In this document: in pieces, positions 20,056 through 21,995 of the stretch | Layout of the letters: every line of letters starts with the position of its first letter | How positions within the stretch are numbered: the stretch's first letter is position 1 | Origin: Armatimonadota bacterium | GTDB lineage: Bacteria > Armatimonadota > Fimbriimonadia > Fimbriimonadales > Fimbriimonadaceae | Length of the DNA: 64,000 bases | Assembly: GCA_018268255.1 (NCBI GenBank) | Contig: JAFDWX010000008.1 | Coordinates: forward strand, 277,269 to 341,268 | Direction: 5' to 3' | Made by a program: the position numbers and the translations under genes | Notes under the pieces: model-generated | What the model saw: the letters and a program-made list of their open reading frames with translations, nothing else | Told to the model about the DNA's origin: nothing | Databases searched by the model: none

Positions 20056-21177
20056 ATGAGTGCGTCAGGAATGATGGAATCCATAGACGCCGGTAGTTCG
20101 AAACGGCGGATCATGGCTGTGCTGATGACCGATGTATATCGGTTTACCCAGCGCGTAAATATTGGCGAGGAGTCTGTAGTCGAGCGGCTGCAAAGCGATC
20201 TTCGCCGAATGGCCGAAGTGTGTGAGCAGCACGGTGGCAAAATCGTGGCCAATCGCGGCGACGGTCTTAAAGTCATCTTTGAAAGCTCGGTGGAGGCAGC
20301 GACCGCAGCCGTGGAACTTCAGCGGGAGCTGAGGAAAAAGAACGAGGAGCGTCCGGCTGAATCTCCTTCTATCGTGCATCGCATGGGAGTCCACGTTGGA
20401 GATGTGGTCCTCACTCAGGACCCGGTCACCGGATTACTAAATGTGAGTGGCGCGGCCGTAACCGTGGCAGCACGGTTGGAACAACGATGTCCGCCAGGCC
20501 AAGTCGCCTTTGTGGAAGACGTGGCGAACGACATCAAGCGGAATCTGAATCGAGTTCCTCTCGGATTCCTCGCGGCAGAATCGCTGAAAGATGTCCCTGG
20601 GACCACTCGGATTTGGACGACTAAGTTCGGCGGCGAAGTCTCTGAGATGCCGGGCGACCCGATGAATCCGATCATGGCTGCCCATCGGCGGGAGCGCGCT
20701 GAAATCAATAGTTTCATCGAGGAGATGCGCGGCGAAATCGCGGAAATGAAACGCAACACCACCATCATCAGCGTGTTGTGGATCGTGCTTCTGGCGATCG
20801 CGGGATATCAGATTTTTGCCCTAACCCAACGAGTGGGGGATTTGGAACATCCGACGAGTGACCGCTTTGCGGGGGCACCCTCGGCTGCCGTCCAGCCTGA
20901 CTCGGGCATGGCCGCTAGTTCCGAACGGGACTCAAGCGGACAGAAGGGCAACAAAGTCCGACAAGAGCCCCGTTCGAAAAGCGGCAAGGCTGACCGGTCT
21001 CAGGATCAACCTCAGGTTTCAGAAAATTCTGGAGAAGATGTAAGGCGCTACCGCCGCCAATACAGGGAAGACGCCAAAACGGAAGATACGCCACCGGAAA
21101 CGCCACCGAATGAATCGACACCTGCTCCACCTGAGCCAGATTCTGATCCAATGAAATCCACAAACCAAGGGCTTTGA
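20056..21177 (+). CDS. Class III nucleotide cyclase-domain protein with one membrane helix
   Basis: 373 residues from the ATG at 20056, chosen for its AGAGGGG ribosome-binding site (an in-frame TTG at 20011 lacks one). An N-terminal cyclase homology domain (about 15-190) keeps both metal aspartates, D26 in MTDVYRF and D69 in NRGDGLKVIF, and the arginine of the transition-state pair (R140 in VTVAARLE). The asparagine usually four residues before that arginine is threonine (T136), and the base-recognition lysine position is alanine (A65). A coiled stretch, a helix at about 236-256 and a 115-residue Pro/Ser/Glu-rich tail follow. The next gene encodes a Crp-type regulator with matching operator sites, suggesting cAMP or a related nucleotide as product. 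Confidence 0.88.
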   Translation: MSASGMMESIDAGSSKRRIMAVLMTDVYRFTQRVNIGEESVVERLQSDLRRMAEVCEQHGGKIVANRGDGLKVIFESSVEAATAAVELQRELRKKNEERPAESPSIVHRMGVHVGDVVLTQDPVTGLLNVSGAAVTVAARLEQRCPPGQVAFVEDVANDIKRNLNRVPLGFLAAESLKDVPGTTRIWTTKFGGEVSEMPGDPMNPIMAAHRRERAEINSFIEEMRGEIAEMKRNTTIISVLWIVLLAIAGYQIFALTQRVGDLEHPTSDRFAGAPSAAVQPDSGMAASSERDSSGQKGNKVRQEPRSKSGKADRSQDQPQVSENSGEDVRRYRRQYREDAKTEDTPPETPPNESTPAPPEPDSDPMKSTNQGL

Positions 21178-21229
21178 CCGGATTTCCGCGTTTCATGAGA
21201 TGATTCTAGGACCAAAGTCCGTTGTACAA

Positions 21230-21245
21230 TGTGACTTAGGTCACA
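21230..21245. promoter_or_regulatory. CRP-type operator 1
   Basis: TGTGACTTAGGTCACA, a perfect TGTGA-N6-TCACA palindrome, the consensus half-sites of E. coli CRP. It overlaps a possible -10 box (TACAAT, 21225-21230) and lies 46 bp before the start of the Crp-type regulator at 21291, so binding here would repress that promoter. Confidence 0.8.
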
Positions 21246-21252
21246 GGCCGGA

Positions 21253-21268
21253 TGTGATCTTGATCACA
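21253..21268. promoter_or_regulatory. CRP-type operator 2
   Basis: TGTGATCTTGATCACA, a second perfect TGTGA-N6-TCACA palindrome. Its centre is 23 bp from that of operator 1, about two helical turns, so two dimers would sit on the same face. It lies 22 bp before the regulator's ATG. Confidence 0.8.
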
Positions 21269-21290
21269 TTGCGAAAAATGGAAGGGCAAA

Positions 21291-21995
21291 ATGGACAGCT
21301 ATATCGACCATCTGAAAAAGGTGTCGCTATTCCAGGATCTGCAGGAAAACACCCTGCAACTCCTTAGCCAAGGGTGTCGCATCCGAAACTTTGGGGCACG
21401 CGACCACATGTTCCACCAAGGCGACCCCGGCGGAACGGTGTACATCATCCTATCCGGCCAGGTTTCCATCGAACGATTGATCGAATACGATGATCGCGAC
21501 GAGACGATCCAGATGGCGATTCGGGGCGAAGGGGAAGTCATCGGCGAGTTTTCGCTGTTCGACGACATTCCGCGCTCGGCGGATGCTCGCGTTGTCACTC
21601 CTGCTCGCGCGTTGATCCTGGACGGTCGGTACATCATGGAAACCCTTCGCCGCGACGACAAACTGGCAGCCTCCATTATTAGGGTGCTGTGCAAAAAGCT
21701 CGTCCAACAGATGGATCAGAAGACATCTCATCAACTGGAAACCGTGCGCACGCGATTGGTGAAAGAGCTCATCAATTTGGCTAAGGCAATGGGTGAAAAG
21801 GATGAGGACGGCGTCATCTGGATCAAAGGGAAGATTACGCAGGCCGACCTCGCCAACCGCATCGGGTGCAAGCGCGAGGTGGTGAATCGTGCTCTCGGAG
21901 AGATCGGCCGCGATGTGGTCGGCAGCCGCAACGGCCGAATCGGCATCTACGATCCGCGCGCCCTCAAGCGCATGGCTGGCCCGGTTTTGGGATAA
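21291..21995 (+). CDS. Crp/Fnr-family transcriptional regulator, cAMP-binding type
   Basis: 234 residues: a cyclic-nucleotide-binding domain (about 1-120), a dimer helix and a C-terminal winged helix. The phosphate cassette reads GEFSLFDDIPRSA, keeping the Glu, Arg and Ser that contact cAMP in CRP (E86, R95, S96 here). The recognition helix reads KREVVNRAL, preserving R180, E181 and R185 of E. coli CRP as R195, E196 and R200, the residues that read the GTGA half-site. No iron-sulfur cysteine cluster of the Fnr type is present. ATG at 21291. Two perfect CRP-type sites lie directly upstream, so autoregulation is likely. Ends 3 bp before the convergent beta-helix gene. Confidence 0.93.
   Translation: MDSYIDHLKKVSLFQDLQENTLQLLSQGCRIRNFGARDHMFHQGDPGGTVYIILSGQVSIERLIEYDDRDETIQMAIRGEGEVIGEFSLFDDIPRSADARVVTPARALILDGRYIMETLRRDDKLAASIIRVLCKKLVQQMDQKTSHQLETVRTRLVKELINLAKAMGEKDEDGVIWIKGKITQADLANRIGCKREVVNRALGEIGRDVVGSRNGRIGIYDPRALKRMAGPVLG

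Follow-up and report, generated by a model that had tools for sequence, protein, structure and literature searches.

A class III cyclase-like gene and the Crp-family regulator gene that follows it may form a conserved two-gene, autoregulated cyclic-nucleotide operon of the Fimbriimonadaceae, in which the cyclase likely makes a messenger of altered base that is read by the Crp protein (a rough probability of 0.45 for this reading as a whole). Both maker and reader have moved off the residues that confer cAMP specificity in canonical proteins, and the best reading of these changes is either that the messenger is a cyclic nucleotide of a non-canonical kind or that the cyclase-like protein serves as a non-catalytic regulatory subunit. 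The pair lies in the window, the whole 64,000-nt stretch of DNA that was analysed, and its features are collected in Table 1. Both reading frames have the coordinates given in the original prediction, which also described correctly the two perfect TGTGA-N6-TCACA sites, with centres 23 bp apart, inside the 113-bp intergenic gap, and the regulator residues proposed to read DNA (R195, E196 and R200) and to contact cAMP (E86, R95 and S96). It missed that the cyclase is without the purine-specifying Lys and Asp and the transition-state Asn, and that the Crp protein is without Thr127 and Ser128.

Table 1. Features of the cyclase-crp locus (positions in the window).
Feature	Position	Strand	Basis or remark
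Class III cyclase-like gene (373 aa)	20056..21177	+	PF00211, E 9e-8; AlphaFold model; tree clade
Altered active-site motif A65-N-R67-G-D69-G-L-K72	20248..20271	+	Alignment with operon cyclases
Predicted transmembrane helix IISVLWIVLLAIAGYQIFA	20764..20820	+	Hydropathy scan; helix 205-263 in structure model
Near-perfect palindrome GGACCAAAGTCC	21209..21220	.	Immediately 5' of putative crp -10
Putative -10 box TACAAT	21225..21230	+	Inferred; hexamer match only
Operator 1 TGTGACTTAGGTCACA	21230..21245	.	Perfect CRP consensus
Operator 2 TGTGATCTTGATCACA	21253..21268	.	Perfect CRP consensus; 23 bp from operator 1
Likely crp ribosome-binding site GGAAGGG	21280..21286	+	Sequence
Crp-family regulator (234 aa)	21291..21995	+	PF00027 and PF13545 (HTH_Crp_2); R195/E196/R200 recognition helix

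Profiles of the cyclase and of the Crp protein were searched over 291 Armatimonadota genomes. Operon-type cyclases score 150-656 bits, with the next best at 122, and operon-type Crps 309-357 bits, with the next best at 203. The top-scoring proteins of both kinds come from an identical set of eight Fimbriimonadaceae genomes, in every one of which the two genes are adjacent and in the same order. This check on relatives, proposed with the prediction, bears out the linkage, and the genomes that keep the pair include G001, of the same genus as the window genome (G000). By longest-ORF starts the genes overlap in six of the eight, and are separated by 30 bp in one and by 113 bp in the window. G002, also of the same genus, gave no Crp match at E<=1e-20, no operon-type cyclase match at E<=1e-12, and no sites. 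Cyclase and Crp are tied by genome position and by shared presence and absence. The operon cyclases form one clade with support of 100/100; the tree holds seven of the eight, that of G155 having been dropped at domain extraction. Apart from distant cyclases of Alphaproteobacteria, a profile search of genome contigs with the cyclase family returned only the two relatives already known. The linkage, the clade, the conservation and spacing of the sites (below) and the residue changes are all computed.

Crp genes also stand beside other, distantly related class III cyclases, at L211 and L213 (G069 and G068, of another family of the phylum), L016 (G025) and L014 (G033), and within Armatimonadota the two kinds of gene seem to have become linked on several occasions. 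In G009 (L112) and G149 (L120) cytochrome oxidase-like genes run convergently to the operon; in the window and in G001 its neighbour is a SpeD-like gene.

The cyclase domain is N-terminal, and is followed by a single predicted C-terminal transmembrane helix and then a low-complexity tail rich in Pro, Ser and Thr; by hydropathy scan a transmembrane helix is encoded 3' of the cyclase domain in all eight operon genomes. The domain belongs to PF00211, the class III cyclase homology domain, and Foldseek matches the AlphaFold model to class III cyclase structures (2w01, the best at E 9.5e-12, and 1wc1). The structure models were built on shallow alignments (3-5 rows) and are trusted for the cyclase domain and the general Crp fold only; the active-site residues were read from an alignment with 3mr7 and paralogues. 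The metal-binding Asps (D26, D69) and the transition-state R140 are invariant in the eight operon cyclases, as are an Arg at D-2 (R67) and a Lys at D+3 (K72), giving the motif xRGDGxK. Every one has lost the purine-specifying Lys at D-4 (Ala in six, including the window, then Ser and Thr) and the canonical Asp, which is Asn in the window and elsewhere Glu, Gln (three times), His, Thr or Val, so that a Thr at this second purine-specifying position (Asp/Thr) is present in G155 only. The transition-state Asn is likewise lost, being Ala in seven and Thr in the window. The residue set of a class III adenylate cyclase (purine-specifying Lys with Asp/Thr, and transition-state Asn) is not found.

The loss of Asn alone appears tolerable, since Ma1120 has Ala in its place and is an active cyclase (PMC4215837). 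The atypical mycobacterial class III enzymes Ma1120 and Rv1900c resemble the operon cyclases in having the Asn replaced and the Arg retained, but Ma1120 keeps the Lys-Asp pair, which the operon cyclases have lost, with R67 and K72 gained. The base selectors of AnPycC (K104 and F109, around D106) lie at D-2 and D+3, and those of EaPycC (R142 and Q144, before D146) at D-4 and D-2 (PMC11224242). Because these Pycsar selectors share their offsets with the changes seen here, the base pocket of the operon cyclases looks rebuilt rather than randomly decayed. Pycsar PycC and its CNBD receptors are further alike in the class III fold and in placing receptor specificity at the Ser128 position, but they differ in the residues themselves and the sequence match is weak. 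A Pycsar pyrimidine cyclase was rejected: the PADLOC match to PycC is weak (E 4e-6), the neighbour is a Crp-type transcription factor rather than a TIR or membrane effector, and the cyclase profile scores (136 bits for 3mr7, 72 for Ma1120 and 19 for BcPycC, 7r65) are closer to the purine cyclases. An origin in phage or defence was also discarded: a search of 50,697 phage records gave no match, and PADLOC only weak ones to PycC and CNBD.

The joint loss of Lys, Asp and Asn could equally mark a dead enzyme. The cyclase-like protein would then be a non-catalytic regulatory subunit that partners a canonical cyclase from another locus, or that tethers or inhibits Crp at the membrane, and the messenger of Crp, probably cAMP, would come from other cyclases. 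Sources for it exist: besides the operon cyclase, each of the eight genomes has three to eight further matches to PF00211, and in several of these D-K-D-D/T-N-R is complete. The window genome encodes five PF00211 proteins, and among the four outside the operon G000:C3:176734 is canonical at all of these residues. Any cAMP that is used may thus have another source, and the claim that the module is self-contained is not established. The gcyB-gcyC subunits of Rhodospirillum (R.) centenum, clustered with the CRP homologue CgrA, are described as non-catalytic (PMC4681086), which also favours a regulatory role. Against this account, which we regard as possible but doubtful, both metal Asps, the Arg of the opposite half and the new Arg/Lys pair are invariant in 8/8, and a purely structural or one-half (C1-like) subunit would need no retention of both halves of a composite site. 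Since both halves of the active site are invariant, an active enzyme with altered specificity is preferred, with modest confidence. Several of the operon-bearing genomes also have cyclases of another degenerate class III clade, with the transition-state Asn changed to Asp, the Arg to His and the motif HSTAGDG (L059, G000:C8:225411, and L168-L171).

The regulator is a Crp-type protein by its domains (PF00027 at 1.8e-15, PF13545 at 2.1e-10), and its model matches the fold of GlxR and MtbCRP. It combines an R-E-x3-R recognition helix with TGTGA-N6-TCACA operators; the Arg-Glu of the helix is kept in all eight Crps, the third residue being Arg or Lys. The other HTH-bearing Crp-type proteins seen in the window genome have a helix of the T-x-E-x-x-I-R type, and another Crp-like protein as reader of the sites was rejected, with no other Crp-type gene seen in the genome carrying R-E-x3-R. 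The phosphate and ribose contacts, Gly-Glu and Arg-Ser/Thr (E72, R82, S/T83), are likewise kept in 8/8. E. coli CRP/CAP, M. tuberculosis CRP and C. glutamicum GlxR share the fold, these contacts, the recognition-helix residues and the consensus operator, and the operon Crps differ from them in being linked to a cyclase gene and at positions 123, 127 and 128: Arg123 is Lys in every one, Thr127 has given way to Ser in six, to Gln in the window and to Ala in G001, and Ser128 is replaced throughout by Met (as in the window), Ile or Thr. The Thr127/Ser128 adenine contacts of a cAMP-specific CRP are not present in the window protein. Position 128 selects adenine in CRP and uracil in PycTIR (PMC11224242). 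However, the loss of Ser128 is suggestive rather than proof of altered specificity, because MtbCRP has Asn at the aligned position and its complex with cAMP has been solved (3i54).

These changes bear on two further readings. It would be unlikely, though in keeping with the altered residues, that the pair amounts to a dedicated transcriptional second-messenger system based on something other than cAMP (possibly cGMP, cCMP, cUMP or another nucleotide), its maker encoded beside its reader and its target being CRP-consensus DNA. A conventional module, with cAMP made by an atypical neighbouring cyclase and sensed by a cAMP-responsive Crp, would fit the nearest solved relatives (purine cyclases and cAMP-binding CRPs), the dispensability of the Asn in Ma1120 (PMC4215837), the hydroxyl provided by Ser at the Thr127 position in six of the eight Crps, and operators that equal the E. 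coli consensus; it is nevertheless improbable, with the purine-selecting Lys and Asp both missing from all eight cyclases, Ser128 from all eight Crps, and Gln and Met at 127 and 128 in the window. What was first proposed, an autoregulated module of cAMP type, is thus upheld as regards the module, by the CRP recognition helix, the footprinted sites and the kept linkage. The "cAMP-type" part is not supported, as the cyclase is without the canonical base-selecting residues and the regulator without the adenine-selecting Ser.

The suggested genome-wide search for TGTGA-N6-TCACA (3.19 Mb) finds seven exact sites, compared with one for the reversed control and ca. 2.4 expected, and five of the seven are the full TGTGATN4ATCACA palindrome (0.13 expected). 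A scan of the window with one mismatch allowed gave no match besides the two sites, and a gap of 113 bp would contain two perfect ones by accident with a probability of ∼3e-9. Across the eight operon genomes there are 38 exact sites vs 3 control matches; sites are commoner there than in operon-less genomes (p ∼2e-4, uncorrected for kinship). Tandem pairs with a centre spacing of exactly 23 bp occur in four genomes, that of the window, G157, G147 and G136, and in the last three they lie upstream of the whole operon, before the cyclase. One of these three pairs has two perfect sites, one a perfect site and one with 1 mismatch, and one a perfect site and one with 2 mismatches. Operator 1 and a -10-like hexamer share one base, the final T of the hexamer and the first of the operator, in the window (TACAAT), in G147 (TATAAT) and in G136 (TAAACT); in G157 the hexamer ends two bases 5' of operator 1. 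Under a simple model, the joint chance that divergent genomes share exact 23-bp pairs at one position of the promoter is ∼1e-14. With this phylogenetic footprint and the equal spacing in four genomes, the window sites look functional. Chance palindromes were rejected on the site counts, the gap probability and the recurrent spacing. That the palindromes are transcription hairpins or accidents rather than Crp operators is very improbable, for although two genomic copies elsewhere sit inside longer perfect hairpins, the window sites lack long arm extensions, pairs at exactly 23 bp recur at one promoter position, and the matching helix is absent from the other Crp-type genes seen in the genome.

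In the window genome there is no site, even at two mismatches, within ∼580 bp 5' of the cyclase gene. The operators therefore probably act on crp only in this genome, as though the regulated promoter had shifted to a place between the two genes. For this putative crp promoter no good -35 was found in the window, and a stricter promoter scan gave no match. Before the operon there is no operator in G001, G009 or G155, and a single degenerate site in G149. A less related crp gene in G052, from another family, has two sites 21 bp apart. Motifs resembling the near-perfect palindrome of Table 1 occur near sites in G033.

A wide regulon was also considered and dismissed: as judged by matching of the TGTGA-N6-TCACA pattern none is visible in the window genome, with only the seven exact sites, and one-mismatch sites are unenriched genome-wide (3 seen vs ∼4 expected, by hand estimate). 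Genes near the genomic sites are mixed (a GH2 hydrolase, and CsgG-like, PD40, MiaA and NIF3-like proteins), several of them exported. Two of the sites, G000:C1:55457 (L002) and C5:128650 (L004), are TGTGATN4ATCACA copies centred in longer perfect inverted repeats with arms of ∼12-13 bp, and may for that reason be hairpins and not operators. In G155 (C131, L186), two perfect CRP-consensus sites (3252 and 3795) lie near two small exported paralogues just 3' of the operon, a possible local regulon. In G001 (C12, L092), a CRP-consensus site lies 3' of a class III cyclase gene and 5' of tandem paralogous exported proteins.

In the mechanism that we favour, Crp would bind the tandem pair over the -10 and start region, and at full occupancy would repress its own transcription and, in the relatives, that of the cyclase too. 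The conserved sites argue for autoregulation, probably repression, which is the natural expectation because Crp at these positions would cover the start region. Its partner would be a membrane-anchored class III nucleotidyl cyclase, with metal Asps and Arg intact and the base pocket rebuilt, that most likely makes, or helps to make, a cyclic nucleotide of altered base specificity; Crp, with its adenine-selecting Ser128 replaced, would read the product. From sequence we infer that the cyclase is catalytic, what kind of messenger is used, which way regulation runs and that sensing takes place at the membrane.

The closest published design found is that of R. centenum, where gcyB-gcyC and cgrA are clustered behind a TGTGA-N6-TCACA site, and CgrA is cGMP-responsive with positive autoregulation (PMC4681086). 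The same architecture is seen here (cyclase gene, CRP homologue and TGTGA-N6-TCACA promoter clustered, with autoregulation inferred); the comparison is of architecture alone and does not imply homology. The R. centenum regulation is positive and its ligand cGMP, in contrast to the single membrane-anchored cyclase, clade-specific motif and tandem promoter-overlapping operator described here. Preceded by such a site and with subunits said to be non-catalytic, that cluster supports both the autoregulated design and a regulatory role for the cyclase-like protein. Xanthomonas XC_0250/XC_0249 is similar in linking a class III cyclase gene to a cyclic-nucleotide receptor gene, and differs in that the reader, XC_0249, is a cGMP receptor (PMC3770947), the operon reader being a DNA-binding Crp.

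No paper on Crp or cAMP signalling in Armatimonadota was found in the open-access literature, and the analysis offers an initial view, at the level of sequence, of how Crp signalling looks in this phylum. The nucleotide read by a Crp protein is normally assumed to be cAMP. A linked cyclase and Crp that have both changed at the residues that fix the base make the question of the messenger directly testable.
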